Part shown: piece by piece, positions 36,225 to 58,736 of the stretch
How positions within the stretch are numbered: position 1 is the first letter of the stretch
How the letters are laid out: each line of letters opens with the position of its first letter
Assembly: GCA_001730015.1 (NCBI GenBank)
Contig: MDLA01000109.1
Coordinates: 1-64,000 of the forward strand
From: Chromatiales bacterium (ex Bugula neritina AB1)
GTDB lineage: Bacteria; Pseudomonadota; Gammaproteobacteria; Granulosicoccales; Granulosicoccaceae
DNA: 64,000 bases
Reading direction: 5' to 3'
The notes under the pieces: generated by a model
Seen by the model: the letters and a program-made list of their open reading frames with translations, nothing else
Database searches by the model: none
What the model was told of the DNA's origin: nothing
Program-made: the position numbers and the translations under genes

Positions 36225-37175
36225 GTGGCTAGGAGAATTTTACTCGACTGTGATCCCGGACACGATGATGCGGTTGCGATTTTGCTCGCGCTGGCGTCGC
36301 CGGCAGAACTGGAGCTGATCGGCATCTCGGTGGTGGGGGGTAATGTCAAACTGGATGCCACGGTGCTGAATACCCGGAAACTGCTGAGTCTCGCCGCTCG
36401 TGACGATATAGACGTCTACGCCGGGTGTCCGCGTCCGATGCTGCGAGAAATTGTTACCGCTGAGCACGTGCATGGTGATACCGGGCTCGACAGTGGCAGT
36501 GGTCGCGAATTGCCGGATCCGCTAAGACCCGTTGCTGATAAGCACGCCGTAAACTTCATTATCGATTCAGTCCGTAACGCCGCTGCGGGTGAAATCACCC
36601 TGGTGGCAACCGGTCCGCTAACCAACATTGCCGTGGCATTTGCAATGGCGCCGGATATTATTGAACGGTTGCAGGAACTGGTAATAATGGGCGGGGCCGG
36701 CTTTGAACCCGGTAACGTTACGCCTGCTGCCGAATTTAATATTTATGTCGATCCACATGCCGCCAGGGCAGTTTTTGAAAGTTCGGTAAAACTGACGATG
36801 TTCGGATTGGACATCACCCATCAGATGCTGATAACTCCCCCCCGTCTCAAGGCTATTGAAGAGCACGGCGGCCGCGTTGGTGCTGTAGTGGCAGATTTAC
36901 TCGACTTCTTTAATCGATACGATATCGGCAAATACGGATGGGATGGTGCTCCTTTGCACGACCCCTGCACCATCGCATGGCTCATCGATCCGACCCTGTT
37001 CGAAGGCAGACTGATGCACGTCGTGGTCGATACCAGCGAAGGACCGTCTCTGGGCCGGACAGTTACAGACTGGTTTGGCGCGGGCGAGGAAGAACCGAAT
37101 GTGATGGTGATGACTTCAGGTGATGCTGATCGATTTTTTGCTTTGATCACGGATCGGCTTAGTCAACTGGACTAA
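36225..37175 (+). CDS. Nucleoside hydrolase (IunH/Rih type)
   Basis: A 316-aa N-ribohydrolase. The calcium-binding DCDPGHDDA at the N-terminus, VATGPLTNIA and the C-terminal HDPCTIAWLIDP with its metal-ligand Asp are diagnostic. It splits purine or pyrimidine nucleosides into base and ribose. It starts at a GTG (no upstream ATG fits). The substrate base is not predictable. The 222-bp gap after it (37176-37397) shows no gene I can support. Confidence 0.93.
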   Translation: MARRILLDCDPGHDDAVAILLALASPAELELIGISVVGGNVKLDATVLNTRKLLSLAARDDIDVYAGCPRPMLREIVTAEHVHGDTGLDSGSGRELPDPLRPVADKHAVNFIIDSVRNAAAGEITLVATGPLTNIAVAFAMAPDIIERLQELVIMGGAGFEPGNVTPAAEFNIYVDPHAARAVFESSVKLTMFGLDITHQMLITPPRLKAIEEHGGRVGAVVADLLDFFNRYDIGKYGWDGAPLHDPCTIAWLIDPTLFEGRLMHVVVDTSEGPSLGRTVTDWFGAGEEEPNVMVMTSGDADRFFALITDRLSQLD

Positions 37176-41921: not shown

Positions 41922-42788
41922 GTGTCTTTGAACTACGCCAGACCGCAAAAGCTTGAATACGCGCTTGATCTGTTGCGTGACAGCGATTGGACAATTCTAG
42001 CGGGCGGCACTGATTTTTACCCGGCACTGGCCGGGCAAGCCCCTTCTTTTCCGGTCCTCGATATCACGGCGATCCCCGATCTGAGATCAGTAAGCGAAAC
42101 CAGTGACGAAGTCCGCATTGGTGCATTGGCTACCTGGACAGATGTTATTACGTCACCTCTGCCGCCGGCGTTTAAAGCACTGCAACAGGCCGGAGTGGAA
42201 GTCGGGTCGGTACAAATACAAAATCGTGCAACGGTTGCGGGTAATGTGTGTAATGCGTCCCCGGCGGCTGATGGTGTACCCCCGTTGCTGTGTCTTGACG
42301 CACAGGTTGAATTGCTGTCCCATCGAGGTGCACGTCGGGTGCCGTTAGAGAAATATATTCAGGGAAACAGACGTACGCAATGCGCGGGTGATGAACTGGT
42401 GAGCGCTATTGTCGTACCGCGACCTTCGATCACTGGAACCAGCGCCTTCCGGAAACTTGGTGCACGCCGTTATCTGGTTATTTCTATCGCGATGGTAGCG
42501 ATTCGTATCGAGGTTGCTAGCGGCCGTGTGGAATCACTGTCTATTGCGGTGGGCTCCTGCTCCGAAGTGGCGATGCGATTGCCGGCTGCTGAAAAGGCTA
42601 TTGTCGGTGAGCTCGCCTCTAAGGGTGTTGAAGCAAAAATAGAGCAACAGCATTTGTCGGCACTGCTACCGATCGATGATATACGCTCCCCTGCCAGCTA
42701 CCGCAGGCACGCTGCTTTGCAGTTGATTCGCCATACTATTGCGAGTTGTATAGAAGATGCCGAGGCCCCTGGGGTGCTGCATGAATAA
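41922..42788 (+). CDS. Molybdenum hydroxylase FAD-binding subunit (XDH/CoxM family)
   Basis: A 288-aa medium subunit of a xanthine dehydrogenase-family enzyme. It has both FAD-binding motifs, LAGGTDFYP near residue 27 and NRATVAGNVCNASPAAD near residue 103, and a CO-dehydrogenase flavoprotein C-terminal domain. It starts at a GTG preceded by GAGAG. Its end overlaps the large-subunit start by 8 bp. It transfers electrons from the Mo centre through [2Fe-2S] clusters to an acceptor. It is the first gene of the candidate N-heterocycle operon. Confidence 0.92.
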   Translation: MSLNYARPQKLEYALDLLRDSDWTILAGGTDFYPALAGQAPSFPVLDITAIPDLRSVSETSDEVRIGALATWTDVITSPLPPAFKALQQAGVEVGSVQIQNRATVAGNVCNASPAADGVPPLLCLDAQVELLSHRGARRVPLEKYIQGNRRTQCAGDELVSAIVVPRPSITGTSAFRKLGARRYLVISIAMVAIRIEVASGRVESLSIAVGSCSEVAMRLPAAEKAIVGELASKGVEAKIEQQHLSALLPIDDIRSPASYRRHAALQLIRHTIASCIEDAEAPGVLHE

Positions 42789-45561
42789 CCTAATGGAAGA
42801 GACAGATATAAATGTAAGCTATACGCTCAACGGCCGGGCTGTAAGCGGTATAGAAAAACCACTGCGGCGATTATCAGATGTACTGCGAAATAAGGGTCTG
42901 ACCGGTACCAAGGTTGGTTGCGATGCCGGTGATTGTGGCGCCTGCACGGTGCTGTTGGATGGCGTGCCGGTTTGTAGTTGCCTGGTGGCTGTTGGCCAGA
43001 TTGAAGGTTGCTCGGTAGAGACAGTAGAAAGTCTGGAACAGGCTGTGAATGGTTGTATAATTCCAGCAGCGTTGCAGCAATCCTTCTTAAAACATGGTGC
43101 GGCACAGTGCGGCATATGCACACCGGGTATGCTGATAGCTGCAACGCACTTGCTGCGCACCAATTCAGCCCCCTCTACACAGGAGGTCAACGATGCGCTG
43201 GGCGGAGTACTGTGCCGTTGCACGGGCTACAGTAAAATTGTCGATGCAGTTGTCGACGCTCCGAATCTGCTCGATAGCAAAGAAGAATCGACGCAACCGC
43301 CCGCAGGGGCAGCCATAGGTGCTAGATTGCAGCGCCTGGATGGCGCACCAAAGGTAAACGGTCAGGATCTATTCGGCGCTGATGTCATCCCGCCAGAGGC
43401 ATTGAGGTTGCGTATTATCAGAAGTCCGCACCATAGTGCAGATTTTACTTTCGGTGACACCGAAGCCTGGCTGAAGAAAAAGCAGCTGGATTTGCTGTTA
43501 ACAGCAGCAGATATACCGGGTATAAATAGATTCGGTGTCATTCCGCCGTTTGCAGATCAACCGGTTTTTGCAGAACAACGAGTGCGTTTTCGCGGTGAAG
43601 CAATTGCCGCTGTTGTCGGTAGTTCTGACGTGATTGAGAGTCTTGAAACCGGATCGTTTCCAGTTGAATGGATTGTGCACGAACCATCGCTAACACCGGA
43701 GGAGGCCCTGCACGCGAGTGCTATGCGATTGCATCCAGAGCGTTTGGGGAATGTGCTGGTACGTGGGCTGGTACAGCGCGGCGATGCTGAAGGTGCATTG
43801 AATAACTCAAAATATACAGAGCAAGGGAGCTTTAGCACACCCTTTATTGAACACGCCTATATTGAACCGGAGGCCGGTTTTGCACAGCGTGCCGGAAACT
43901 CTATAGAAATATATACCTGTACCCAGACCGCCGGTATGACCCGTGAGGAACTTGCAGCTATTATGGGCCTGGCTGAAGATCAGGTGCGTGTTCGGCCGAC
44001 CTCTGTGGGTGGCGGCTTTGGTTCCAAACTGGATCTGTCGTTGCAGCCGTATTTGTGTCTGGCAGCATGGAAACTTGATCGACCGGTAGGCGGTATCTAT
44101 AGCCGTCGTGAGTCTATGCAATCAACCACAAAACGGCACCCCTCGCAGATTGAAGTGCGGGTAGGCTGTGACGCAAACGGTAAGCTGACTGCTGTCGAGT
44201 TTGCTGGCACATTTAATACTGGAGCTTATGCCAGTTGGGGGCCGACAGTGGCAAATCGTGTACCGATTCATGCCTCTGGGCCATTTTACGTGCCCAACTA
44301 CAGTGCCAGATCTACTGCTGTGCATACCAACACCGCGCCTGCCGGTGCATTCCGTGGATTCGGTGTGCCGCAGGCGTCGGTTGCGCTGGAGTCGGTGCTT
44401 GATCGACTCGCTGATAAAATGGGCCTGGATCGTCTGGAATTCAGGCTTAACAATGCACTGGATAATAATCAGCCAACCGGCACCGGGCAGGTGTTTTCCA
44501 GTGGTGTCGGTATCAGATCCTGCCTGCAAGCCCTGCAGCCGGCCTGGGATACTGCTCGCCAGCAGTGTGAAGAGTTCAATAATAACAATAGCCGCTATCG
44601 CAAAGGCTATGGGATCGCGACGTGCTGGTACGGTTGCGGAAATACGTCACTTGCAAATCCGTCAACCATGAAATTAGCGATAAGTCGATGTGGAAAAATT
44701 GTCTTGCATCAAGGGGCTATTGATTTAGGTCAGGGAGCCAGTACAGTGGTTGCGCAAATTGCGGCAGACACACTTGGAGTCGCCGTTGGAGAAATACATT
44801 TATTAGGTGCTGATACGGCAATCACCCCCGATGCCGGTAAAACATCAGCCTCCAGGCAAACCTTTGTAAGTGGCAAGGCGGCTTATCTGGCAGCTCGATT
44901 GTTACGACAACTTGTTTTGCGTGAAGTGAATGCCTCTGACGCAGCGTTGCTCGCCGTTAAGGATGGTGTTCTGAGCATAGAAGATAACAATCAGCGTCAT
45001 GTTCTTAAGCTGGCCGAGCGTGAGCCGGATGAAGAAGGCTATGTCTTTTGCGCTATAGAAACCTATGATCCGCCCACTTCGGAGCTTGATGAAAACGGCC
45101 AGGGTAATCCCTATGCCCAATACGGCTACGGCGCGCAGCTGGTTGAGCTGACTGTCGATATTGAACTGGGCTCAGTCACGCTGGATCGACTGACCAGCGC
45201 CCACGATGTCGGCAGGGCGATTAACCCGCTGCTGGTTGAGGGTCAGATCGAAGGGGGGGCAACTCAGGGGATCGGTATGGCCCTGATGGAAGAGTTTGTA
45301 CCGGGTGTTTCGGAAAACCTTCACGACTACCTGATTCCAACTATCGGCGATGTGCCGGAGTTTGTGCATCACATTGTCGAGGTGCCGGATGCGGAAGGCC
45401 CTTACGGTGCCAAAGGACTGGGAGAGCACGTTTTAATTCCCACGGCACCGGCGATACTAAACGCGATACGTGACGCCACTGGTGCAGAAATCAATCACCT
45501 GCCGGCAACCCCGGATAAAATACTGGCTGCGATCCAGTTGGTCCGGGGACAACAGCTATAA
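42781..45561 (+). CDS. Molybdenum hydroxylase with fused [2Fe-2S] and molybdopterin domains
   Basis: A 926-aa fusion of the small and large subunits of a xanthine dehydrogenase-family enzyme, from the ATG at 42781 (ATGAATAA overlap with the upstream stop). The plant-type [2Fe-2S] cluster uses Cys47, Cys52, Cys55 and Cys67; the second uses Cys110, Cys113, Cys145 and Cys147 (CGIC, CRC). The molybdopterin part (from ~175) has GGGFGSKLD, GAFRGFGVPQAS and the catalytic Glu in YGAKGLGEH. It would hydroxylate an aromatic N-heterocycle or aldehyde using water. Neighbours point to an N-heterocyclic carboxylate rather than xanthine. Confidence 0.92.
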   Translation: MNNLMEETDINVSYTLNGRAVSGIEKPLRRLSDVLRNKGLTGTKVGCDAGDCGACTVLLDGVPVCSCLVAVGQIEGCSVETVESLEQAVNGCIIPAALQQSFLKHGAAQCGICTPGMLIAATHLLRTNSAPSTQEVNDALGGVLCRCTGYSKIVDAVVDAPNLLDSKEESTQPPAGAAIGARLQRLDGAPKVNGQDLFGADVIPPEALRLRIIRSPHHSADFTFGDTEAWLKKKQLDLLLTAADIPGINRFGVIPPFADQPVFAEQRVRFRGEAIAAVVGSSDVIESLETGSFPVEWIVHEPSLTPEEALHASAMRLHPERLGNVLVRGLVQRGDAEGALNNSKYTEQGSFSTPFIEHAYIEPEAGFAQRAGNSIEIYTCTQTAGMTREELAAIMGLAEDQVRVRPTSVGGGFGSKLDLSLQPYLCLAAWKLDRPVGGIYSRRESMQSTTKRHPSQIEVRVGCDANGKLTAVEFAGTFNTGAYASWGPTVANRVPIHASGPFYVPNYSARSTAVHTNTAPAGAFRGFGVPQASVALESVLDRLADKMGLDRLEFRLNNALDNNQPTGTGQVFSSGVGIRSCLQALQPAWDTARQQCEEFNNNNSRYRKGYGIATCWYGCGNTSLANPSTMKLAISRCGKIVLHQGAIDLGQGASTVVAQIAADTLGVAVGEIHLLGADTAITPDAGKTSASRQTFVSGKAAYLAARLLRQLVLREVNASDAALLAVKDGVLSIEDNNQRHVLKLAEREPDEEGYVFCAIETYDPPTSELDENGQGNPYAQYGYGAQLVELTVDIELGSVTLDRLTSAHDVGRAINPLLVEGQIEGGATQGIGMALMEEFVPGVSENLHDYLIPTIGDVPEFVHHIVEVPDAEGPYGAKGLGEHVLIPTAPAILNAIRDATGAEINHLPATPDKILAAIQLVRGQQL

Positions 45562-45600
45562 ACAGCTATAACTGAACCGGAATTTTGCGGGAGGGGCGAT

Positions 45601-47154
45601 TTGGAAACTGATAATAACAATAGTGGCATCGATAAAAATGCCGGAAAAATTCGTTGTGATGCCTGTCCGGTCATGTGCTATATCGCCGATGGGAGATCCG
45701 GTGCGTGTGATCGCTATGCCAACGCTGCAGGTGCGTTGGTTCGGATCGATCCACACAAAATAGTTACCCGTACTGTTACTGAAGGAGGGCCGGTTGTACC
45801 ATTCGTCACCGCGGTAGCGGATGATAGTGATGCTGGTAACGCGGCTAGTCAATGGGACGGCAACCCTATCGCAGGTCGGCAGGTATTTGTTACTGCCGTG
45901 GGCGCAGGAACAACTTACCCCGACTACAAACCCGCGCCGTTTATCGTCTCGCAGGAGGTTGACGGTGTTGACATGGTAACGGTAGTCACTGAAGGTATAT
46001 ACAGTTACTGCGGGGTAAAGGTAAAGATTGATACCGACAGACACCTCGGTGCGGAGCAGAGTACGGTACGCGTTGACGGTGAGGCTGTCGGACACGTAAC
46101 CACTGGAGAGTATGGCTCGCAGATGTTATCGCTTGGCGGAGTGCATCATCTGACTGGCGGATCAAAAAAAGAAGGCCGGGTAACCTGCGATACCATGCTC
46201 AGACTATGCAACAGGGAAGCGGTTGAGCTGACCATCGATGGAGGCTTAGCCGTGGTTGTGCAGGCGGGTTGTGCGCCAATTGTAAATGGTGTGCACGAAG
46301 AGAAAATGCGAGTTGGCTGCGGCTCGGCTACCATAGGTATGTTTGCTTCCCAATGGAAAGGGCAGGTTGATGAAGTCGTAGTGGTCGATGACCACATAAC
46401 CGGCGTTGTATCGGAACATCAGGCGGGTAAGGTAATCGACTGGCAGCCGACCGGAATCAAAGTACTTGGTCGCAAGTCTACACCGGGGCGGTATTTTCAG
46501 GTTGCAGAGCCCGGCACAGGGTGGGGCGGGACTGACATTGCAGACCCTCTGACTATTCTCGGCAAATTCAACGCAAAAAGTGCCCGTGCCGGCATGACAC
46601 TGCTGATGGTTTCGACAACCGGTGAGCAATTCGCTTATTTCGAACTCGATGAGCAATTGCAGCCGATAGCAGTCCCGCTGCCCGATAAGCTGCGGCAATC
46701 AGTCGAGCGAATTGCCGAAAATTGCGAACCGGCACTATGCACCGTGTTGTTTATGGGCGGCGCCGGCGGATCACTTCGAGCCGGTGTCACTGAGAATCCG
46801 GTGCAATTGACTCGCTCAGTTAAAAACACACTGACCCACGTTACTGCCGGTGGCGCACCGGTTTATGTGTGGCCTGGTGGCGGTATCACAATAATGGTGG
46901 ATGTACTGCGAATGCCGGTGAACTCATTTGGTTATGTGCCGACGCCGGCACTGGTCGCGCCGGTCGAATTTACCATGCGGCATTCAGACTACATTGCTCT
47001 GGGAGGGCATGCCGATTACGTGGTGTCGATAGAAGACGCGCTGGCTGGCAGGCTGGGCTCGCAGAATGATCACGTGCTTGCCGGCAGCGAAAAACTGGAG
47101 AATTCGGTAGACAATATCTGGCCGACTGACCCGCACAATTTTTCCTGGCCCTGA
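45601..47154 (+). CDS. 6-hydroxynicotinate reductase-like Fe-S protein
   Basis: A 517-aa protein resembling 6-hydroxynicotinate reductase. The N-terminal motif RCDACPVMCYIADGRSGACD gives four Cys (19, 22, 26, 36) for a [4Fe-4S] cluster. Later Gly-rich stretches (VVQAGCAPIVNGVHEEKMRVG, GGHADYVVSIED) are typical of the family. In Eubacterium barkeri this enzyme reduces 6-hydroxynicotinate to 1,4,5,6-tetrahydro-6-oxonicotinate with ferredoxin. It starts at a TTG after GGGAGGGGCGA, 39 bp after the hydroxylase gene. The assignment rests on family recall and the matching gene pair; the real substrate may differ. Confidence 0.72.
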   Translation: METDNNNSGIDKNAGKIRCDACPVMCYIADGRSGACDRYANAAGALVRIDPHKIVTRTVTEGGPVVPFVTAVADDSDAGNAASQWDGNPIAGRQVFVTAVGAGTTYPDYKPAPFIVSQEVDGVDMVTVVTEGIYSYCGVKVKIDTDRHLGAEQSTVRVDGEAVGHVTTGEYGSQMLSLGGVHHLTGGSKKEGRVTCDTMLRLCNREAVELTIDGGLAVVVQAGCAPIVNGVHEEKMRVGCGSATIGMFASQWKGQVDEVVVVDDHITGVVSEHQAGKVIDWQPTGIKVLGRKSTPGRYFQVAEPGTGWGGTDIADPLTILGKFNAKSARAGMTLLMVSTTGEQFAYFELDEQLQPIAVPLPDKLRQSVERIAENCEPALCTVLFMGGAGGSLRAGVTENPVQLTRSVKNTLTHVTAGGAPVYVWPGGGITIMVDVLRMPVNSFGYVPTPALVAPVEFTMRHSDYIALGGHADYVVSIEDALAGRLGSQNDHVLAGSEKLENSVDNIWPTDPHNFSWP

Positions 47155-47185
47155 CTCTGGATCCGGCTTTGATAACCAGTCGATT

Positions 47186-48055
47186 ATGAATGCCGTCGCT
47201 GCATTGATTAATGATGGCAAACGACTGCATTTGCAGCACGGGCCAATTGATCTGATAATTGAAGTGACCGCCACAGAGCAGCAGGTTCAAAAAGCCTACA
47301 CACGGGCAATAGATTGCTTCAGTGGATTGCTGGAAAAACTGGTTGAAGAATTGGCACTATTGCGCCGCCCGTCAGGCGAGACCGCACTCGCTGAGCTCAA
47401 TGGTTCGGTTGCCCGCCGCATGTGGACTGCAGCCTCCAGGTTTCCCGGCCATTTCACAACACCGATGATTGCAGTTGCCGGTGCGGTAGCGGATGAAGTA
47501 CTGCAGAGTATTACATCCGGACTGACGCTCGGGCGGGTACTGGTTAATAACGGGGGCGATATCGCCCTTTACCTGGGCCCTGGACAACACACGGATATCG
47601 GTGTGGTTGCTAACCCCGGTTCCGGTATGCTGGCCGCTAAAGTCCGGCTAGGCGAACATGACGGTATCGGCGGAGTTGCAACAAGCGGCTGGCAGGGACG
47701 CAGTCTCAGTATGGGCATAGCAGATTCAGTGACGGTAGTCGCCGCAGATGCAGCAATTGCTGATGCCGCAGCCACACTGATTGCCAACGCGGTAGCACTG
47801 GAAAATTGTGCCGTGGTTGAACAGCAAAGAGCCTGCGATATAGATCCCGACAGTGATCTGGGAGCCCGCCTTGTCACAACCCGTGTCGGGCAGCTGACTG
47901 ATGCTGAAATCTTTCGGGCGCTGGCTAATGGTCTTGACCAGGCGCAGCGCATGAAACAACACGGCAATATAGTAGATGCACATTTGTGTCTGCGCCATTA
48001 TTATGAAACGACAGATCGACGTGAGCATTCGTCGAAGTCGATTGTTCAAGCTTAA
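47186..48055 (+). CDS. UPF0280 family protein (ApbE-like fold)
   Basis: A 289-aa UPF0280 protein. VNNGGDIALYLG (residues ~120-131), GVATSGWQGRSLSMGIADSV (163-182) and AIADAAATLIANAV resemble the ApbE flavin-transferase fold, but the full ApbE magnesium/FAD motif set is not seen. Function is unproven in the family. It is fixed between the reductase-like gene (31 bp upstream) and the AA_synth pair (22 bp downstream), so it probably matures or assists the reductase, perhaps with a flavin; that is inference. Confidence 0.72.
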   Translation: MNAVAALINDGKRLHLQHGPIDLIIEVTATEQQVQKAYTRAIDCFSGLLEKLVEELALLRRPSGETALAELNGSVARRMWTAASRFPGHFTTPMIAVAGAVADEVLQSITSGLTLGRVLVNNGGDIALYLGPGQHTDIGVVANPGSGMLAAKVRLGEHDGIGGVATSGWQGRSLSMGIADSVTVVAADAAIADAAATLIANAVALENCAVVEQQRACDIDPDSDLGARLVTTRVGQLTDAEIFRALANGLDQAQRMKQHGNIVDAHLCLRHYYETTDRREHSSKSIVQA

Positions 48056-48077
48056 CCAGTTTACTCGGGGGAATTCT

Positions 48078-48662
48078 GTGCCTGAAGTGGTGATAAGAAA
48101 GATAGTGGTGTCAGTCGAGGAGACTTGGCATGAGGGCGGGCCGGTCGCCAGGGTACCGTTACGTAAAGCGGCTTGTCTTGCGATTATAGACAACCCCTTC
48201 GCCGGCCGGTACGAAGAAGATATTGCCGGGTTTATGGATGATCTCAAGCCTCTGGGCGTGCAAATGGCGCAGCGTCTGATCGAAGCACTCGGTGGGGATG
48301 CCGGCGCTATTCAGGGCTATGGCAAAGGCGCAATTGTCGGGGAGGCCGGGGAAATAGAGCATGGGGCGCTGTGGCATGTGCCCGGCGGTTACTCCATGAG
48401 AGAGCTGATTAAAGACAGTATGGCTATTGTGCCGTCAACAAAAAAAGTGGGAGCACCGGGCGTGCGACTGGATATCCCGCTGACACACACAAACGCTTCC
48501 TATGTAAGATCGCATTTTGATGCGATGGAAGTGGGGGTGAATGATGCGCCTCGGGCCAACGAACTTGTCCTTGCTCTGGTTATGTCCACCGGAGCCAGGG
48601 TACATAATCGCGCTGGCGGGCTAGAGGCAGATGCCATTGTCGGCGAAGATGGATTGCGATAG
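48078..48662 (+). CDS. Amino acid synthesis (AA_synth/DUF1185) family protein, copy 1
   Basis: A 194-aa member of the AA_synth family from the GTG at 48078, preceded by GGGGGA. VIRKIVVSVEETWHEGGP opens the domain, with CLAIIDNPFAGRYEEDI, GYGKGAIVGEAGEIEHGA and VRSHFDAMEVGVNDAPRANE as conserved blocks. Biochemical function is not established to my knowledge. The following gene is a clear paralogue starting immediately after its stop. Confidence 0.78.
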   Translation: MPEVVIRKIVVSVEETWHEGGPVARVPLRKAACLAIIDNPFAGRYEEDIAGFMDDLKPLGVQMAQRLIEALGGDAGAIQGYGKGAIVGEAGEIEHGALWHVPGGYSMRELIKDSMAIVPSTKKVGAPGVRLDIPLTHTNASYVRSHFDAMEVGVNDAPRANELVLALVMSTGARVHNRAGGLEADAIVGEDGLR

Positions 48663-49241
48663 ATGCGTATTCGAAAGGTGGTTACATTTGTCGAAGAAAC
48701 ACACCGCGATATGAATGAACGGATTAAACCGGCTACCCGTAAATCGGTGGCCGTGGCTGTTATAGATAATCCGTTTGCCGGATCTTACCAACAGAATCTG
48801 CAACCATTGATTGAGACTGGCGCCGCGCTGGGTAAATTGCTTGGTGAAAAAGCAGTGGCAGCACTTGGAGTCAAGCCGTCGCAGATAGAGAGTTACGGAA
48901 AAGCTGCCATGGTTGGAAGCAATGGTGAGCTTGAGCATGCCGCTGCAATATTACACCCGTCGCTCGGAGCACCACTGCGAGCAGCTGTTGAAAAAGGAGC
49001 TGCTCTGGTTCCGTCCTCCAAAAAAATGGGAGGCTGCGGTCAGCCGCTTGATGTCCCGCTCGGCCACAAAGACGCCGCATATGTGAGAAGTCACTTTGAC
49101 GGTATGGAAGTGCGACTCTCCGATGCGCCCCGTGCAAATGAAATACTGGTTGCTGTGGCCGTTACCGATTCCGGCAGGCCGCTGCCCCGGGTTGGCGGAT
49201 TGCAGGCAGCTGATGCAATTGGCGAAGACGGATTGCGATAA
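48663..49241 (+). CDS. Amino acid synthesis (AA_synth/DUF1185) family protein, copy 2
   Basis: A 192-aa paralogue of the preceding protein, with the same blocks in order: IRKVVTFVEETHRDMN, VAVIDNPFAGSYQQNL, SYGKAAMVGSNGELEHAA, VPSSKKMGGCGQPLDVPL and VRSHFDGMEVRLSDAPRANE. Its ATG follows the upstream TAG with no gap. Tandem paralogues with zero spacing suggest a heteromeric complex, an inference. Confidence 0.78.
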   Translation: MRIRKVVTFVEETHRDMNERIKPATRKSVAVAVIDNPFAGSYQQNLQPLIETGAALGKLLGEKAVAALGVKPSQIESYGKAAMVGSNGELEHAAAILHPSLGAPLRAAVEKGAALVPSSKKMGGCGQPLDVPLGHKDAAYVRSHFDGMEVRLSDAPRANEILVAVAVTDSGRPLPRVGGLQAADAIGEDGLR

Positions 49242-49275
49242 CCACATAATTAGATATTTAAACTGACTAAGCGAT

Positions 49276-50301
49276 ATGAAATACGTAGAAAATGCCTGGT
49301 ACGTCGCGGGCTGGGCAAGTGAGTTTGCCGATCAGCCGGTAAAGATTACAGTGCTTGAGCAAGAGCTGGTTCTGTATCGCAAGACTGACGGGCAAGTGTG
49401 TGCCCTGCGGGATCTGTGTCCGCATAAACTTCTGCCGCTTTCGATGGGCAAGGTCGACGGAGACACCATCCAGTGTGGTTACCACGGCACCGTGTTCAAT
49501 GCTCAGGGTCATTGTATACGCGTGCCGGGGCAGGAGATCATTCCAAAGCGCCAGTGCGTGGACGTATTCCCCGTTCATGAAAAAAACAATATTGTCTGGG
49601 TATGGATGGGGGATGCCGATCAGGCCGATACCAGCCAGGTGTTTGATCTGCCCCAGTTCCACGATAAAACATGGCGAGCACATCACGGTGATGCGTTGCA
49701 CATTGAAAGTAACTACTTAAACGTCGCCGAGAATCTTGTCGATCCGGCGCACGTTAGTTTTGTTCACCCGACAACACTCGGGAATGCTCAAAGTGAAGAT
49801 GTCCCTGTGCACGTTGATACTGCGGGTGAAACCATCACTGCGTGGCGCTGGATTCGCGATGCTCCTCCAGTCGGGTTTTTCAAGGAGCTCGGAGGGTTTG
49901 ATGGCCACGTTGATCGCTGGCACTACTACTATCTGCACTTGCCAAGTACTGCGGTAATAGATTTCGGCAGTGCGGATGCGGCACTTGAAATAGCGGAGGA
50001 AGATCGTGAGCAGGGCATGCGAATTTTTGCGTTGCACTTTCTGACACCAGTGAATGCAACCCATACCATAGATCGCTGGATGCATATTCGAAACCGTGCC
50101 ATCGATGACAACTCGATTGGTGATCGCATGAATGCGTTGTTTCGTATTGCATTCGACGAAGACAAAGTTATTCTGGAAGCGATACAGGAGCAGGAGACTC
50201 GATTGGCTGCCGCAGAAAAACCGACACAAAAGCCACTTCGACTTGCAATTGACAAAGGACCGAACGAATATAGAAAGCGCATAGAGCGCCTGCAGCAATG
50301 A
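49276..50301 (+). CDS. Rieske non-heme iron oxygenase, aromatic/heterocycle (VanA-like)
   Basis: A 341-aa terminal oxygenase of the phenoxybenzoate/vanillate demethylase type. The Rieske cluster is Cys48-x-His50 (LCPHKLLPL) and Cys67-x2-His70 (QCGYHG). The mononuclear iron region is ENLVDPAHVSFVHPTTLG, with the bridging Asp and two His. No reductase gene is adjacent. It lies 34 bp after the second AA_synth gene in the operon. It could N- or O-demethylate, or hydroxylate, the imported compound. Confidence 0.9.
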   Translation: MKYVENAWYVAGWASEFADQPVKITVLEQELVLYRKTDGQVCALRDLCPHKLLPLSMGKVDGDTIQCGYHGTVFNAQGHCIRVPGQEIIPKRQCVDVFPVHEKNNIVWVWMGDADQADTSQVFDLPQFHDKTWRAHHGDALHIESNYLNVAENLVDPAHVSFVHPTTLGNAQSEDVPVHVDTAGETITAWRWIRDAPPVGFFKELGGFDGHVDRWHYYYLHLPSTAVIDFGSADAALEIAEEDREQGMRIFALHFLTPVNATHTIDRWMHIRNRAIDDNSIGDRMNALFRIAFDEDKVILEAIQEQETRLAAAEKPTQKPLRLAIDKGPNEYRKRIERLQQ

Positions 50302-50372
50302 GTGGATCTGCGATTGTCGGCAAGCAGGGTACAACCTAATCGTCCAATAAGGGCAAAATCGGGGGAGATTAT

Positions 50373-51575
50373 ATGAAAATTACGCGAACAATTGTGGCTG
50401 CAGCGCTGGCAACGGCCGCGGGACTGGCGTCGATGACAGTAACAGCTGCTGACGCGATAACAATCGGCGAGATAAACAGCTACTCACGATTGCCGGCTTT
50501 TCTCGATCCCTACCGAAAAGGCTGGGAGCTGGCGGTCGAAGAAATCAACAATGCCGGTGGAATCAAAGGCCGGAAGCTCGAAGTTATTGCACGTGATGAT
50601 GGCGGCAAACCCGGTGATGCGGTAAAGATTGCGGAAGAATTGGTAAACCGTGATCAGGTAACCATGATAGCGGGTACTTTTTTATCCAACATCGGTCTCG
50701 CAGTGACTGATTTTGCCAAGCAGAACAAAACATTTTTTTTGGCAGCAGAACCGCTTAGTGATGCCATTGTGTGGTCTAGCGGTAACCGCTACACCTTTCG
50801 CTTGCGACCATCCACAACAATGCAGGCCGCGATGCTTGCTAAAGAAGCGCAAAAAACAGGCGCAAAAAAGTGGGCGACAGTAGCACCTAATTATGCCTAT
50901 GGCAAAGATGCTGTCGCGGCGTTCAAAAGTGAACTGCTGAAACTTGTTCCAGATGCTGAGTTCATTGAAGAGCAGTGGCCAACCGTGTTCAAGATTGACG
51001 CCGGATCAACAGTGCGTGCACTTGAGGCATCAAAGCCCGAAGCCATATTTAATGTCACGTTTGGCGGTGACCTTGCGAAATTTGTACGTGAGGGAAATCT
51101 TCGAGGATTGTTTGAGGGTCGCACGGTAGTGAGCCTGCTTTCGGGGGAACCGGAGTATCTTGAGCCGTTGAAGGATGAAGCTCCGGAGGGATGGATAGTC
51201 ACGGGTTACCCGCAGGGTGCCATCGAAGAGGCGGCTCACCAGAAGTTCTATGCAGCTTATGAAGCTAAATGGGGCGAAGCTCCCAAGCTCGGTTCTATTG
51301 TGGGCTATAACCTCATTGCATCTATAGAGGCACTATTCCAAAAAGCACCGGCAGATGATGCTGAAACGCTTGTCGACACCATGGAAAATCTAAATGTGAG
51401 TTCTCCTTCCGGGGATTTTATATTCCGCAAGCAGGATCACCAGGCAACTATGGGTACCTGGGTGGGCAGAACGGCTGTAGTTGATGGTAAGGGCGTCATG
51501 GTCGACTGGTTCTATGCAGATGGCAGTGACTATCAGCCAAGCGACGAAGAAGTCATGAAGTTGCGACCTGAGTAA
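50373..51575 (+). CDS. Branched-chain-type ABC solute-binding protein (LivK family)
   Basis: A 400-aa type-I periplasmic binding protein (family 5/6). Signal peptide to VTAA-D at about residue 26; ITIGEINSYSRLPAFLDPYR starts the mature domain, with EINNAGGIKGRKLEVIARDD the family-specific segment. An ideal GGGGGAG ribosome site precedes the ATG. This family captures amino acids, amides, urea or aromatic acids. The permease and ATPase genes lie downstream, separated by 1.3 kb holding another gene and a MITE. Confidence 0.9.
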   Translation: MKITRTIVAAALATAAGLASMTVTAADAITIGEINSYSRLPAFLDPYRKGWELAVEEINNAGGIKGRKLEVIARDDGGKPGDAVKIAEELVNRDQVTMIAGTFLSNIGLAVTDFAKQNKTFFLAAEPLSDAIVWSSGNRYTFRLRPSTTMQAAMLAKEAQKTGAKKWATVAPNYAYGKDAVAAFKSELLKLVPDAEFIEEQWPTVFKIDAGSTVRALEASKPEAIFNVTFGGDLAKFVREGNLRGLFEGRTVVSLLSGEPEYLEPLKDEAPEGWIVTGYPQGAIEEAAHQKFYAAYEAKWGEAPKLGSIVGYNLIASIEALFQKAPADDAETLVDTMENLNVSSPSGDFIFRKQDHQATMGTWVGRTAVVDGKGVMVDWFYADGSDYQPSDEEVMKLRPE

Positions 51576-51695: not shown

Positions 51696-52481
51696 CTAAT
51701 AACTGAATTTCGGGTTGCGTGTGTTTCCAAACCACAGGCTCAACGGTGTGCCGAAATCCATAATCCGCGAATTGTTTCCTATATTCAGATCAAGGTGTCC
51801 GATGTTGTAGTTCGGCTGGTAGCTGTTGCCGATATTGAGGCTGTAGTTCCCGCCGCTGTAGCTGGGTTGGTAGCTGTTGCCGATGTTGAGGCTGTAGTTG
51901 CCAGCGTTGTAGCTGGGTTGGAAGCTGTTGCCGATATTGAGGCTGTAGTTGCCAGCGTTGTAGCTGGGCTGGAAGCTGTCGCCGATGTTGAGGCTATAGT
52001 TGCCAGCGTTGTAGCTTGTCTGGAAGCTATTGCCGAAGTTGAGGTTATAGTTACCAGTGTTGTAGCTCGTGGTTGAGTTAACGTTGTTAAATCCGGACCT
52101 GAAAGTACCGTCGAGATTCAGGCTGGTGCTTCCGGCGTCGAAACCTGAACTGAAGTTAACGCCTGTCCCCTGATTGCCAAAGCCGGAGGTCAGGATTGAC
52201 GGCGATCCGGAATTCAAGTGCTGGAGCGTGTTTAACAAACTGCCGGAGTTTGTATTGAATGCACTACCAGTGGCACAGTTGCATTCCTGACCATTTCCGG
52301 ATTGCTGCAATTCCTGTAGCAGAGAAAGTAATATGTTTATCAGTTGCTCAGTTAAATCACTGTTGCTGCCTGACGGGTAACCACTGCAGCTTCTGGAGGT
52401 ACCGGACTGGTCAGATCTGAGCAATGACAGAGTTTGACTCAACATTTGTGAGTTGATGTTCATGTAGTTGCTGTTCATCAT
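51696..52481 (-). CDS. Asn/Ser/Tyr-rich tandem-repeat protein
   Basis: About 261 aa from the ATG pair at 52481/52478; the frame is open to 52583 but the extra part is Arg/Pro-rich and unlike the rest. No signal peptide is evident. The N-terminal ~70 residues are Ser/Leu/Gln-rich (ELQQSGNGQECNCATG). From about residue 140, 17-residue repeats of the type YNAGNYSLNIGNSFQPS follow, five near-identical and at least one degenerate. Alternating polar and hydrophobic residues with Gly, Asn and Gln resemble beta-solenoid or amyloid-like repeats. It interrupts the transport operon on the opposite strand. No family recognised. Confidence 0.6.
   Translation of the reverse strand: MMNSNYMNINSQMLSQTLSLLRSDQSGTSRSCSGYPSGSNSDLTEQLINILLSLLQELQQSGNGQECNCATGSAFNTNSGSLLNTLQHLNSGSPSILTSGFGNQGTGVNFSSGFDAGSTSLNLDGTFRSGFNNVNSTTSYNTGNYNLNFGNSFQTSYNAGNYSLNIGDSFQPSYNAGNYSLNIGNSFQPSYNAGNYSLNIGNSYQPSYSGGNYSLNIGNSYQPNYNIGHLDLNIGNNSRIMDFGTPLSLWFGNTRNPKFSY
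51810..52064 (-). repeat. 51-bp tandem repeat array (5 units) inside the repeat-protein gene
   Basis: Five consecutive 51-bp units encode the 17-aa motif; differences between units are few (NYNLNFG versus NYSLNIG, F versus Y). A shortened sixth unit continues to ~51777. An older, degenerate unit (FDAGSTSLNLDGTFRSG) lies upstream. The low divergence suggests recent expansion and possible length variation between strains. Confidence 0.9.
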
Positions 52482-52610
52482 GGGTCTCGCATTTAGGTGC
52501 GAACAATCAATGCGTGTTCGCGGTGGCGGGACTCTACACCTGCCAGTCGCCTTGGTTGGTGATGTAATCAGCATTAGTGTCAATAATGTTAATATTTTGA
52601 ATCAAAGTGT

Positions 52611-52899: not shown

Positions 52900-54762
52900 A
52901 TGACGAGTGGATTTATTTTCGCGCAGTTCCTTACCGGCCTGTCGAGTGCATCGTCGTTGTTTCTGGTGGCATCCGGATTGTCGCTGATTTTTGGCGTTAC
53001 GCGCATTGTTAACTTTGCCCATGGCAGTTTCTATATGCTGGGTGCATACGTTGCATACCATCTGATTGAATGGCTGCCAACCGGCATTCTTCCGTTTTGG
53101 GGTTCAGTGATTTGCGCTGCACTGGTTGTTGGTGTGGTCGGGGTTATTGTTGAGATTGTTATTCTCAGACGGATATATCATGCACCTGAGTTGTTTCAAC
53201 TGGTTGCCACATTCGGCATTGTGCTGGTGATGCAGGATACCATTCTGGCACTTTTCGGTGGGGAGGATAAATTTGGCTCGCGGGCACCAGGGCTCAAAGG
53301 AGTGGTGCGGATCTTCGGGGAACCCATTCCACAATACGACCTTCTTCTGATCGGGCTCGGGCCGGTAGTGCTGCTTGTGGTGTGGTTGCTGTTGAACAAA
53401 ACCCGCTGGGGAACATTGGTGCGTGCCGCAACACAGGATCGCGATATGGTGGCAGCGCTCGGGGTAAACCAGGCCTGGCTGTTTACCTCTGTATTTTTTC
53501 TCGGCTCCGCACTGGCGGGGCTCGGTGGAGCGGTGCAGGTTCCGCGGGAATCAATCAATCTTCTGATGGATCTCAGCATTATTGCGGAAGCGTTTGTTGT
53601 TGTTGTGATTGGTGGTATGGGCAGTATTGTCGGGGCATTTCTTGCTGCCGTGCTTATCGCTGAACTGAATGCATTCGGTATTCTGATAATGCCGCAGATT
53701 ACCATCGTACTCGCTTTTCTGGTGATGGCTGTTGTACTGGTGGTAAGGCCGTGGGGTTTGCTTGGAAAGCCGGATGTAATTCAACATGCCGGTGATCAAA
53801 TCGATATGCCGCTGCGCGAAGCGGGCTGGGCTGGCAAGGTCATCGGGCTGCTGGTAGTAGCGGCACTGATTGCGGTTCCGTACCTTCTGGATGATTTTGG
53901 TATCGTACTGGCAACGGATATTATTATTTTTGCGTTGTTTGCTGCCAGCCTGCATTTCCTGATGGGCAACAGTGGCATGGTGTCGTTCGGGCATGCAGCA
54001 TACTTTGCACTTGGCGCCTATGCTTCTGCGCTGGTGTTTCGCCATCTTAACGGATCCATGGAACTCGCACTGCTCCTCGGGCCGATTGCAGCCCTGGTTG
54101 GTGCGCTGGTATTTGGCTGGTTCTGCGTTCGCTTATCGGGTGTCTATCTGGCGATGCTGACTCTGGCTGCGGCACAGATTGTCTGGTCTGTTACCTATTC
54201 CTGGGGCGATGTCACCGGGGGTGATGATGGCATGCTTGGTATCTGGCCTGCAGAGTGGGCTAGAAGCAAGCACGCGTTTTATTATCTGACGCTGGCATTG
54301 TGCGGGGGCGGTGTTCTTATCCTTCGAAAGATTACCCATGCGCCGTTTGGCTATGTTTTGCGCGGAGGCAGAGATTCGTCAGTTCGAACAGAATCTATAG
54401 GTATACATTTACTCCGGCATCGGCATCTGGGCTTTGCAGTGGCCGGCCTGTTTGCCGGAGTCGCCGGTTCGATTTATGTTTTTTCTAAAGGTAGTATTTT
54501 CCCTGATGAAGCAGCAATCCCCCGGTCTATCGATGGACTGGTGATGGTATTGCTGGGTGGGGTGCACACGCTCGCCGGGCCGTTAGTTGGTGCTGGTGTT
54601 TTTAGATTACTGGAAGATCAAATATCGCGACTCGATTTCTGGCGTGCAATTCTCGGGGCTATTATTATATTGCTGGTGGTTGTAGCACCGCAGGGGGTTG
54701 CCGGCTTTTTCCATACACTGGCCATTCGCATTGGTCTGGCAAAAGGGCGTGAATCAGCATGA
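52900..54762 (+). CDS. Fused LivH-LivM branched-chain-type ABC permease
   Basis: A 620-aa inner-membrane protein made of two permeases normally encoded separately. Residues ~1-290 match LivH (ASGLSLIFGVTRIVNFAHGS; GMGSIVGAFLAA). Residues ~305-620 match LivM (LMGNSGMVSFGHAAYFALGA; GVAGSIYVFSKG). Its end overlaps livG by 4 bp (ATGA). It starts at an ATG after CAGGAAA. It transports the ligand of the binding protein at 50373. Confidence 0.92.
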   Translation: MTSGFIFAQFLTGLSSASSLFLVASGLSLIFGVTRIVNFAHGSFYMLGAYVAYHLIEWLPTGILPFWGSVICAALVVGVVGVIVEIVILRRIYHAPELFQLVATFGIVLVMQDTILALFGGEDKFGSRAPGLKGVVRIFGEPIPQYDLLLIGLGPVVLLVVWLLLNKTRWGTLVRAATQDRDMVAALGVNQAWLFTSVFFLGSALAGLGGAVQVPRESINLLMDLSIIAEAFVVVVIGGMGSIVGAFLAAVLIAELNAFGILIMPQITIVLAFLVMAVVLVVRPWGLLGKPDVIQHAGDQIDMPLREAGWAGKVIGLLVVAALIAVPYLLDDFGIVLATDIIIFALFAASLHFLMGNSGMVSFGHAAYFALGAYASALVFRHLNGSMELALLLGPIAALVGALVFGWFCVRLSGVYLAMLTLAAAQIVWSVTYSWGDVTGGDDGMLGIWPAEWARSKHAFYYLTLALCGGGVLILRKITHAPFGYVLRGGRDSSVRTESIGIHLLRHRHLGFAVAGLFAGVAGSIYVFSKGSIFPDEAAIPRSIDGLVMVLLGGVHTLAGPLVGAGVFRLLEDQISRLDFWRAILGAIIILLVVVAPQGVAGFFHTLAIRIGLAKGRESA

Positions 54763-55559
54763 GTACACCGGCTAGTGTGTCTTCGCCATCTGTGTTGCAG
54801 GTGGATTCGCTGTGCAAATCTTTCGGCGGTGTTGATGCCGTAGACAAGGTTTCATTTTTTGTCAGGCAAGGGGAGTTGCTGGCGCTGATAGGCCCGAATG
54901 GCGCAGGGAAAACTACCTGCTTCAATATGCTTAACGGGCAGTTAAAGCCGGACAGTGGCACGGTGATCTTAAACGGAGAAAATATAACGGCTTTGCATCC
55001 GCGGCAGGTATGGCGCCGCGGAGTGGGTAGAACTTTTCAAATTACCGCCACCTATTCCTCAATGACGGTCTCCGAAAACGTACAGATGGCGCTGATTTCC
55101 AAACACCGTAAAGGGCTGTCGTTGTTCAGCTCAGCGAGCAAATTGTATTGCGATGAGGCACTCGCACTTCTGGAGCTGGTGGGGATGCAATCTCAGGCTC
55201 AACGCTCAGCGGGAATACTGGCGTACGGAGATTTAAAACGACTGGAGCTGGCAATCGCTCTGGCACATGAGCCGGTATTGCTTTTAATGGATGAGCCAAC
55301 GGCGGGAATGGCACCTGGTGAAAGAGCCGAGCTCATGGAGCTAACTGCCGAAATCGTCGTCGAGCGTGGATTGTCTGTGTTATTCACTGAGCACGATATG
55401 GACGTGGTTTTCGGTCACTCCGACCGGATTATGGTGCTCAACAGAGGACAGCTGATTGCGCAGGGAGACGCTGACAGCATTCGCAATAATGAGCAAGTGC
55501 AGGATGTCTATCTTGGTGGCGGTTCTATGTTTGCCACGGGAGCTGCAAATCATGCTTGA
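54759..55559 (+). CDS. livG: LivG-type ABC ATP-binding protein
   Basis: A 266-aa ATPase of the branched-chain-type importer. Walker A is GPNGAGKTT (~45-53), with VGRTFQITATYSSMTV as the Q-loop region. The signature is degenerate: LSYG-like, here LAYGDLKRLELA; Walker B is LLLMDEPTAGM. It overlaps genes on both sides by 4 and 8 bp, so livHM-livG-livF are translationally coupled. Confidence 0.93.
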   Translation: MSTPASVSSPSVLQVDSLCKSFGGVDAVDKVSFFVRQGELLALIGPNGAGKTTCFNMLNGQLKPDSGTVILNGENITALHPRQVWRRGVGRTFQITATYSSMTVSENVQMALISKHRKGLSLFSSASKLYCDEALALLELVGMQSQAQRSAGILAYGDLKRLELAIALAHEPVLLLMDEPTAGMAPGERAELMELTAEIVVERGLSVLFTEHDMDVVFGHSDRIMVLNRGQLIAQGDADSIRNNEQVQDVYLGGGSMFATGAANHA

Positions 55560-56723: not shown

Positions 56724-56972
56724 TTTTTTATTTCTCGTCAGGGCGCGATAGCCAAGTGTACTTACTTGTACGTGCGATGGATAAACAACCATTAGCATAG
56801 TGCTTATGTGCCACTTCTGTCCAATGGCTGCTGTGGTGGCAAACATCCCAAGTGTTACTGTTTCAAAATGAAGCTGGTACTGTCGTAAGTACTGACCCGA
56901 ATTGCGGATGGGATAGTGGCCTTGCTTTCGGGTATTATCGGTTTATCAGAATAAAATCGAAGGGCATTGCGC

Positions 56973-58736
56973 ATGGCACAAGATAATTCAGCAAAGAATG
57001 GCAAATCGAAAATAACGCCGGAGCAGTTAAGAAGTTATCGATGGCTTGGCGAGGACGACCTGCGCTCTTCGAGTCATCGCTCGCGGTTCATGCAAATTGG
57101 TTTTTCCGAGGAGGATTGGGCCGGGCGACCGCTTATTGCCATCGTTAATACATGGTCGGATATCAATCAGTGTCATTCGCATTTCAAGCATCGGGTCGAC
57201 GACATCAAGCGAGGCATTCTACAAGCTGGCGGGCTGCCGATAGAATTGCCTGCGATCTCCCTGTCAGAGCCGATTGTTAAACCCTCTGCAATGTTGTATC
57301 GAAATTTTCTGGCTATGGAAACCGAAGAATTATTACGCAGTCATCCAATTGATGGTGCAGTGCTGATGGGCGGTTGCGATAAAACCACCCCGGCGTTGCT
57401 GATGGGCGCAATCAGCATGAATATACCGGCCATTTATGTACCGGCCGGGCCGATGCTTAGAGGTCACTGGCGCGGTAAAACCCTTGGGTCTGGCTCAGAC
57501 TCATGGAAATACTGGGATGATCTTCGCGCCGGCGAAATAGAACGCGAGGACTGGAACGAGGTTATGGGCGGAATTGCGCGCTCTTACGGAACTTGCATGA
57601 CGATGGGTACGGCCGCCACCATGATGTCTATTGCCGATAGCATCGGTATGTGTCTGAACGGTGCCAGTTCGATTCCAGCGGCCGATTCGGGTCATATAAG
57701 AATGTGCAGTGCCTCCGGCCGACGAATTGTCGAGATGGTCTGGGATGATTTCAAACCGTCAGATATATTGAATCGCAAGGCCTATGAAAACGGGGTTTCA
57801 GCGGCAATGGCGATGGGCTGTTCGACTAATGCAATCATTCACCTGATCGCCATGGCCAGGCGCAGCGGAGTAGATTTGAGTCTGAATGATTTTGAATTGA
57901 AAAGCCGCCGGGTACCGGTCATAGCTAATGTGCGGCCCAGTGGTGATAAATACCTGATGGAAGATTTTTTCTATGCGGGTGGCCTGCCAGCGATGCTCGC
58001 GCAAATAAAAGACGAACTCCATACCGACTGCATTACTGTTTCCGGCAAAACCATAGGTGATGTCGTCGCCCGTGCAGAAGTGTATAACGACGATGTGATT
58101 CGTACCACCGGCAACCCGATTTATGCTGAAGGTGCACTGGCGGTTTTAAAAGGTTCTCTGGCCCCGGATGGTTGCGTAATCAAGCCGTCGGCCTGTGAGG
58201 AACGCTTGCTCAAGCATCAGGGACCGGCGCTGGTTTACGATAACTATGAAGAGCTTAAAGCTTCAATAGACGATCCCGAACTGGACGTAACGGCAGATAC
58301 TGTACTTGTATTGCGCAATGCTGGGCCTAAAGGCGGGCCAGGGATGCCGGAATGGGGGATGCTGCCAATTCCGCAGAAACTGCTGAAGCAGGGCGTAAGG
58401 GATATGGTGCGGATATCGGATGCCCGAATGAGCGGTACCAGTTATGGTGCCTGCATTCTCCATGTGGCCCCTGAGTCCTATGTGGGGGGGGCGTTGGCGC
58501 TGGTGAAGACAGGAGATATAATTGCTGTCGATGTTGCAGCACGATCGATTGATTTACAGGTAGATCAGGCTGAATTGCAGCGGCGGCGTGACGAATGGCA
58601 GCAACCGCAGGCACGCTACGAGCGGGGCTACGGCTGGATGTTTTCGCGCCATATTCTACAAGCCGATAGCGGCTGCGATTTCGATTTTCTGGAAACCTCG
58701 CATGGCAGACCTGTCGATGAACCTGCGATATTCTAG
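56973..58736 (+). CDS. IlvD/Edd-family dehydratase, sugar-acid (arabonate-type)
   Basis: A 587-aa dehydratase from the ATG at 56973 with GAAGGG upstream. Cys in NQCHSHF, GGCDKTTPA and YGTCMTMGTA are the three cluster ligands of the [2Fe-2S] L-arabinonate dehydratase subgroup, and the length matches it better than IlvD proper. It converts an aldonate to a 2-keto-3-deoxy sugar acid. Nearby aldo/keto reductase and SDR genes fit a non-phosphorylative sugar oxidation route (arabinose-, galactose- or fucose-like). The exact sugar acid is not predictable. Confidence 0.88.
   Translation: MAQDNSAKNGKSKITPEQLRSYRWLGEDDLRSSSHRSRFMQIGFSEEDWAGRPLIAIVNTWSDINQCHSHFKHRVDDIKRGILQAGGLPIELPAISLSEPIVKPSAMLYRNFLAMETEELLRSHPIDGAVLMGGCDKTTPALLMGAISMNIPAIYVPAGPMLRGHWRGKTLGSGSDSWKYWDDLRAGEIEREDWNEVMGGIARSYGTCMTMGTAATMMSIADSIGMCLNGASSIPAADSGHIRMCSASGRRIVEMVWDDFKPSDILNRKAYENGVSAAMAMGCSTNAIIHLIAMARRSGVDLSLNDFELKSRRVPVIANVRPSGDKYLMEDFFYAGGLPAMLAQIKDELHTDCITVSGKTIGDVVARAEVYNDDVIRTTGNPIYAEGALAVLKGSLAPDGCVIKPSACEERLLKHQGPALVYDNYEELKASIDDPELDVTADTVLVLRNAGPKGGPGMPEWGMLPIPQKLLKQGVRDMVRISDARMSGTSYGACILHVAPESYVGGALALVKTGDIIAVDVAARSIDLQVDQAELQRRRDEWQQPQARYERGYGWMFSRHILQADSGCDFDFLETSHGRPVDEPAIF

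Follow-up and report, generated by a model that had tools for sequence, protein, structure and literature searches.

Gene content of the locus

The window analysed here is a stretch of 64,000 nucleotides (positions 1 to 64,000 of contig MDLA01000109.1) from Chromatiales bacterium (ex Bugula neritina AB1). Between positions 41922 and 51575 it carries a putative operon that we propose to act in the import and reductive degradation of nicotinate. A preliminary description of this segment had listed eight plus-strand genes with family labels; all eight open reading frames (ORFs) are present at the positions first given, and Pfam and NCBIfam agree with the labels except for the protein encoded from 45601, for which neither Pfam nor NCBIfam gave a match at E<=0.001 and no PDB sequence was matched at E<=1. 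The first two genes encode the FAD-binding subunit (41922-42788; PF00941, 136 bits; PF03450, 52 bits) and the fused [2Fe-2S] and molybdopterin subunit (42757-45561; Fer2_2, MoCoBD_1 and MoCoBD_2) of a molybdenum hydroxylase, predicted to be a nicotinate 6-hydroxylase. They are followed by an Fe-S protein with a Cys-rich N-terminus (45601-47154), placed in the 6-hydroxynicotinate reductase family (HNR) by the annotation of plasmid relatives and by invariant cysteines, and by UPF0280 (47186-48055; NF003322, 333 bits for a cut-off of 290), a predicted HNR maturation factor with an ApbE-like model. Two AA_synth (DUF1185) paralogues come next. The first (48078-48662) matches PF06684 with 236 bits and PDB 3byq with 194 bits and carries subfamily-diagnostic residues; the second (48663-49241) matches PF06684 with 239 bits and PDB 2qtp with 298.5 bits and is close to Ruegeria pomeroyi SPO0826. 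The last two genes encode a Rieske non-haem iron oxygenase, possibly an N-demethylase (49276-50301; Rieske and VanA_C), and a LivK-type periplasmic binding protein (50373-51575; Peripla_BP_6; PDB 3i45, 509 bits over 374 residues).

The same-strand run extends beyond 51575 up to 56253 with a fused LivH-LivM permease (52900-54762; BPD_transp_2 in two stretches), the LivG ATPase (54759-55559; ABC_tran and BCA_ABC_TP_C) and the LivF ATPase. The mechanical start of the latter, 55456, overlaps LivG and a start near 55552 is likelier; its top NCBIfam matches, UrtE and LivF, are below their cut-offs, and the Liv order is kept in relatives. The eight genes are separated by an overlap of 32 bp followed by gaps of 39, 31, about 22, 0, 34 and 71 bp. 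The gap of about 22 bp counts from a GTG at 48078, preceded by GGGGGA, which is probably the real start of the first AA_synth gene, the mechanical start at 47976 being probably too early. A promoter scan returned 12 sites for a shuffled mean of 13.7, and a terminator scan 20 for a shuffled mean of 14.6 (standard deviation 3.8).

UPF0280 accompanies HNR

The earlier designation of the 45601 product as 6-hydroxynicotinate-reductase-like was borne out by its relatives. Among 26 plasmid records with an HNR relative of 60-80% identity, 17 carry that name, 3 are annotated as hypothetical and 6 are unannotated; the Eubacterium barkeri protein itself lies outside the alignment. The four N-terminal cysteines already reported for the protein (C19, C22, C26 and C36) are invariant in all 44 aligned rows, and so are C137, C240 and C375. 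A model of medium confidence (predicted local distance difference test, pLDDT, 76.7) gave no match at E<=0.001 in a fold search.

HNR relatives in named genomes were analysed for the best 80 of at least 302 confirmed, with loci annotated by tblastn; as the loci differ in length, gene counts per locus are lower bounds. In 73 of these 80 loci the gene immediately downstream of HNR, in the same orientation, is UPF0280. The remaining seven comprise two loci at contig ends, one with UPF0280 450 bp off, one with UPF0280 elsewhere and three without it. AA_synth (either paralogue) is present in 74 loci, MarR in 57, an enamidase-like gene in 40 and a LivK-type gene in 36. The association was also found at the level of whole genomes: in the class to which the Rhizobium locus L016 belongs (289 genomes), 44 genomes have HNR, exactly these 44 have UPF0280, and the 245 others have neither (Fisher p 4e-53, uncorrected for ancestry), at a cut-off of E<=1e-10 which remote UPF0280 relatives could escape. 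The arrangement of HNR and UPF0280 is beyond chance, and the families of the operon do co-occur in other genomes, a point that the preliminary description had put forward for checking. In one locus (L007, 1429-4340; ORFs of at least 170 aa), an HNR relative of 59% identity is followed by an AFOR_N/AFOR_C gene, not by UPF0280.

In the class of the window's own organism, HNR was found in 5 of 369 genomes including this one (one case being marginal), compared with 44 of the 289 genomes in the class of L016, which suggests that the operon may have been acquired by this lineage. The window HNR forms a long branch of its own on the HNR tree.

UPF0280 as a candidate flavin transferase

With the AlphaFold model of UPF0280 (pLDDT 94.1), Foldseek gave 216 matches, 18 of them at E<=0.001. 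The first two chains belong to the protein's own family (2o34) and ranks 3-40 are all flavin transferases of the ApbE/FmnB/Ftp type, these 38 chains having probabilities of 0.91-1.00, TM-scores of 0.28-0.45 and root-mean-square deviations (rmsd) of 8.6-15.5 A. The C-terminal motif of ApbE comprises a Mg-binding Asp and a Thr four residues apart; in UPF0280, D193 is invariant and T197 is conserved at 90% or more (alignment A5), their equivalence to the ApbE residues being judged by eye. The HNR of E. barkeri is said to carry a covalently bound flavin. Because UPF0280 and HNR share their distribution over the 289 genomes (44 with both) and the UPF0280 model comes closest to flavin transferases of the ApbE type, UPF0280 may mature HNR, and the simplest reading is that it may be a dedicated flavin transferase or maturation factor for this enzyme.

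Three observations weigh against this assignment: the ApbE superpositions are loose (TM-score <=0.45, rmsd >=8.6 A), UPF0280 has no Pfam match, ApbE included, and the one stretch of HNR that resembles an ApbE acceptor site is not invariant. Targets of ApbE carry a [ST]-[GS]-A-T-like acceptor motif, and the Thr of GSAT (residues 241-244) was considered as the site of HNR flavinylation and rejected, as only 38 of the 44 rows have Thr there, with Ala in 5 and Val in 1; four of the six rows without Thr (L029, L078, L085 and L092) still have an adjoining UPF0280. The flavin attachment site in HNR would therefore be elsewhere. The variable acceptor stretch and the loose superpositions would also suit a UPF0280 that is a catalytic partner of HNR or itself performs one of the pathway's steps, such as one on 1,4,5,6-tetrahydro-6-oxonicotinate (THON) or its products, and the perfect co-occurrence with HNR fits maturation and catalysis alike. 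We give a catalytic role real weight without favouring it, since the Foldseek ranks 3-40 consist entirely of ApbE-type flavin transferases and a covalent flavin is attributed to the E. barkeri enzyme.

The hydroxylase and the substrate

A relative of the FAD subunit lies inside 41 of the 80 named HNR loci. The window-type Mo subunit is found in 43 loci and NicB in 34, with both in none and neither in 3 (Fisher p 1.8e-19, uncorrected for ancestry); judged from this distribution, the window hydroxylase takes the place of NicAB in HNR loci. The nicotinate dehydrogenase of E. barkeri (3hrd) is among the PDB matches of the Mo subunit without being the top one. Plasmid annotations name nicA/nicB and a gene called nicR beside the same core. 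A nicotinamidase-like gene is present in 9 named loci, all with the hydroxylase type of the window, and its copy in L088 scores 213 bits for an NCBIfam cut-off of 174. Finally, the amidohydrolase of the Sulfitobacter cluster has as its sole PDB match at E<=1e-10 the E. barkeri enamidase 2vun (360 bits). Since NicAB, nicotinamidase and enamidase are found in sister clusters, the comparative evidence points to nicotinate as the substrate. The earlier proposal of an operon for an N-heterocyclic acid is thus retained for catabolism, uptake and likeness to the E. barkeri pathway; picolinate and homarine, which it had left among the candidates, are rejected as likely substrates on this genomic context.

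The Rieske enzyme and the transporter

Relatives of the Rieske protein with at least 60% identity were found on 11 plasmids, all of which also carry HNR (best 30 of 60 matching records); the next among the matches listed are below 40% identity. The hosts of these plasmids are Sulfitobacter, Pseudosulfitobacter or Sagittula. The Rieske gene is present in 4 of the 80 named loci, three of them with LivK. Its closest PDB relative is an O-demethylase (dicamba O-demethylase, 142 bits), and our guess, which fits both family and context, is that the Rieske enzyme could N-demethylate trigonelline. The ligand of 3i45, the PDB relative of the binding protein, is presumably nicotinic acid, an assumption to which we give no weight as evidence.

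The Rieske-bearing subset might use another pyridine acid, such as undemethylated trigonelline, homarine, picolinate or a hydroxynicotinate, nicotinate being used only in related clusters. The joint presence of the Rieske and LivK-type genes in three of the four named Rieske loci and in both marine Rieske plasmids viewed fits such a specialisation, and a hydrolase of the HyuAB type (see below) might accept an N-methyl lactam. However, the same LivK family accompanies NicAB and HNR in Rieske-free Bradyrhizobium loci, many of them with enamidase, and enamidase is also present in the Rieske-bearing loci L012, L018, L083 and L091. We regard a different substrate for the Rieske-bearing subset as unlikely and retain nicotinate.

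The binding-protein and permease genes adjoin in three annotated plasmid relatives (Sulfitobacter, Comamonadaceae and Pseudosulfitobacter), unlike in the window, where they are separated by 1.3 kb. This gap holds a minus-strand ORF of 295 aa without a Pfam match (51696-52583), inside which lies a 51-bp tandem repeat of 5.2 copies with 89% match (51804-52067).

A HyuAB pair as the probable ring opener

A gene for ring opening is missing from 41922-51575, and an enamidase query found nothing at E<=1e-5 in the organism's own genome (a draft with 98.61% completeness and 5.14% contamination). In other HNR genomes this query did find matches: in 35 of the 50 named ones, three of them with no more than 49-57% identity, and in 19 of the 44 drawn ones. 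Because no enamidase match was obtained in the own genome and HyuAB is present instead, the pathway is treated here as a variant. The ring-opening gene probably lies elsewhere in the genome, in the HyuAB pair of contig C129. The own genome has 11 HyuA matches, all but the top one at most 40% identical; the top one scores 963 bits, with 65% identity to a Neorhizobium HyuA that adjoins HNR. On C129 a class III CoA-transferase gene stands directly ahead of HyuA and HyuB follows behind (the mechanical ORFs overlap). The top NCBIfam matches of HyuA and HyuB are the alpha and beta subunits of caprolactamase CapAB, a member of the hydantoinase/oxoprolinase family; at 517 and 306 bits for cut-offs of 1000, the pair is not CapAB itself. 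The best match of the CoA-transferase is NF052585, succinate-glutarate CoA-transferase, at 512 bits, below the cut-off of 750.

The distribution of the two ring openers was compared among HNR genomes. At thresholds of at least 550 bits for enamidase and at least 790 bits for HyuA, 17 of the 44 drawn genomes have enamidase, 26 have a close HyuA, none has both and one (G644) has neither (Fisher p 2.6e-11). Two HyuA genomes (G482 and G522) show weak enamidase matches, of 173 and 297 bits, and six enamidase genomes (G419, G483, G566, G612, G649 and G705) have HyuA matches with 42-45% identity. Among the 50 named genomes, picked from the 80 loci for length and variety, 34 have enamidase only, 12 HyuA only, one both (G415, with a 57%-identical enamidase) and three neither. 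On the HNR tree the enamidase and HyuA states need at least six changes, and there are no independent pairs in which both genes move alike. HyuA lies inside the locus in 9 of the 80 named HNR loci and in 4 of 6 plasmid regions (L089, L090, L093 and L094). Because enamidase and HyuA nearly exclude each other among HNR genomes and have switched repeatedly, HyuAB probably replaces enamidase.

Several points weigh against this conclusion. The thresholds used for the drawn genomes were chosen after the scores had been seen. The exclusion is partly lineage-bound: 4-5 of 8 tree pairs are informative, all of them opposite, with a sign test p of 0.0625-0.125. A HyuA of at least 790 bits is also present in 2 of the 245 genomes without HNR (G532 and G635), a 64%-identical HyuA fragment lies at a contig end in another (G545), and HyuA scores 738-780 bits in five more. 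In addition, as HyuAB lies on a separate contig of a draft with an estimated contamination of 5.14%, it might come from another organism. Together with the abundance of HyuA-like genes and the few independent tests that the tree affords, these observations would be expected if the exclusion reflected shared ancestry or linkage, with HyuAB doing something else and an unrelated, unseen hydrolase opening the ring. That explanation does not readily account for the zero overlap at high score in the 44 drawn genomes and the six or more switches, for the presence of HyuA within HNR loci and plasmid regions, or for the lactamase-type best match and the glutarate CoA-transferase-like neighbour, and we consider it improbable; replacement of enamidase by HyuAB is preferred. 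A literature search linking hydantoinase to nicotinate terms found no paper; most subscription papers were outside the search, so that a precedent in print is possible.

The plasmid hyuA and hyuB genes near HNR (L093, L090 and L089) are named N-methylhydantoinase, acetophenone carboxylase or hydantoinase/oxoprolinase. Should HyuAB act as the ring opener proposed here, those names would mislead.

The AA_synth pair

AA_synth is present in 39 of the 44 genomes with HNR compared with 17 of the 245 without. Two or more copies occur in 16 of 17 enamidase genomes versus 8 of 26 HyuA genomes (p 3.7e-5, uncorrected for ancestry). AA_synth is absent from five of the 44 HNR genomes, which speaks against our assignment, and all five belong to the HyuA set. 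The AA_synth content thus tracks whichever gene opens the ring, as would suit a function at this step or downstream of it. Thirteen diagnostic sites separate the two subfamilies (47 and 68 rows), and the polar residues common to both include K80, E89, E91, H92, H98, R106, R142, H144, R172 and R176. We propose that AA_synth could act in enamine hydrolysis, tautomerisation or decarboxylation of a 2-formyl dicarboxylate.

The intermediate of the trigonelline (Tgn) pathway is a shorter 2-formyl dicarboxylate analogue. In Acinetobacter baylyi, TgnF of this pathway is described as homologous to the DUF1185-type HcdD and as stimulating succinate-semialdehyde oxidation, an effect that could not be shown for HcdD (PMC7913881); the likeness of TgnF to the AA_synth proteins of the window is drawn via this description of HcdD. 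Structures of AA_synth proteins are reported as chorismate-mutase-like hexamers with no assigned ligand, and genes of a branched-chain amino acid-type transporter lie near SPO0826 (PMC2954203).

A third AA_synth paralogue is encoded on the organism's own contig C90 (L104, 8334-8996), adjoining a look-alike of luciferase-type flavin monooxygenases (by eye) and near another branched-chain-type ABC transporter; this is perhaps a second ring-cleaving pathway.

Neighbouring genes

About 4.7 kb upstream of the operon, a plus-strand gene (36225-37175) encodes a nucleoside hydrolase whose best match, the uridine-preferring UriH, is below cut-off. Downstream, a plus-strand gene (56967-58736) encodes a dehydratase that scores 1032 bits with the NCBIfam model of L-arabinonate dehydratase, whose cut-off is 882; an apparent SDR gene lies further downstream, and a separate sugar-acid pathway is possible there.

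Relation to known systems

The core of the pathway is already known: a reductive nicotinate route via THON with enamidase has been described (PMC9304392), and a nicotinate cluster with HNR, an ABC transporter and two conserved unknown proteins, for which the THON route was proposed, was reported in 2012 for Bradyrhizobiaceae SG-6C in a paper that also cites nicotinate degradation via glutarate in Azorhizobium caulinodans (PMC3511419). On this comparative basis, the window operon is a variant of the E. barkeri/Azorhizobium reductive nicotinate pathway. It shares with the A. caulinodans/SG-6C cluster the HNR, the ABC transporter, the two conserved unknowns and the THON route (PMC3511419). In Bradyrhizobium loci that are long enough (for example L031), the gene order is NicB-NicA-HNR-UPF0280-AA_synth-LivK-LivHM-LivG-LivF-MarR-enamidase-ferredoxin reductase, and by this order the two unknowns of the SG-6C cluster are probably UPF0280 and AA_synth. 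The Bradyrhizobium loci differ from the window in carrying NicAB and, in most cases where the sequence extends that far, enamidase. The hydroxylase of the window is XDH-like, its AA_synth genes number two, a Rieske gene is present and HyuAB lies on a different contig.

With the E. barkeri pathway, which PMC9304392 and PMC3511419 outline, the operon has in common a Mo hydroxylase, HNR and a nicotinate route, the last being proposed for related clusters. It differs in the fused 2Fe-2S/Mo subunit of its hydroxylase (four subunits in E. barkeri), in the absence of an enamidase match in its own genome, in the predicted exit via glutarate and in the addition of a Liv transporter and a Rieske gene; it also has UPF0280 and AA_synth, the neighbours of E. 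barkeri hnr being outside this comparison. The cluster of Sulfitobacter pontiacus plasmid NZ_CP081117 has the same order as the window, FAD-Mo-HNR-UPF0280-AA_synth-AA_synth and then Rieske-LivK-LivHM-LivG-LivF, and adds MarR, ferredoxin reductase and enamidase, none of which was matched by tblastn in the window.

A proposed pathway

Gene content, co-occurrence, mutual exclusion and the ApbE-like model were observed directly, and from these we infer every reaction in this organism. The best explanation of the whole, with a probability of about 0.75, is that the operon serves the import of nicotinate, or of a nicotinate-yielding derivative, and its reductive degradation. Uptake of either compound would fall to the LivKHMGF transporter, the Mo hydroxylase would convert nicotinate to 6-hydroxynicotinate, and HNR would reduce this compound to THON. 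The ring would probably be opened by the ATP-dependent hydantoinase/caprolactamase-type HyuAB encoded on the other contig, not by enamidase, and as a glutarate CoA-transferase-like gene adjoins HyuAB, carbon would probably exit as glutaryl-CoA. HNR probably receives its flavin through UPF0280, which would load or transfer it. The enamine or 2-formylglutarate released by ring opening is labile and is probably dealt with by the AA_synth pair, and trigonelline, an N-methylated precursor, probably enters the pathway by way of the Rieske enzyme. The most specific form of this proposal, a marine trigonelline/nicotinate-to-glutarate pathway in which UPF0280 is a flavin transferase, HyuAB a second ring opener, the Rieske enzyme an N-demethylase working with the transporter and AA_synth an enzyme of the ring-opened product, is tentative and, taken with all its parts, doubtful.

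If the assignments are true, UPF0280 would be a dedicated non-canonical flavin transferase, HyuAB a non-homologous lactamase and the Rieske enzyme, with a transporter of its own, an N-demethylase of trigonelline, all three being undescribed parts of the route, and a second enzyme class is suggested for the opening of the reduced ring. The window's HNR has neither a Pfam or NCBIfam match nor a solved sequence relative, and its medium-confidence model shows no recognisable fold. UPF0280 and AA_synth/DUF1185, two families with solved structures and no assigned function, become testable parts of a named pathway, and bacteria including marine ones would be linked to the use of vitamin B3 and perhaps of the betaine trigonelline.

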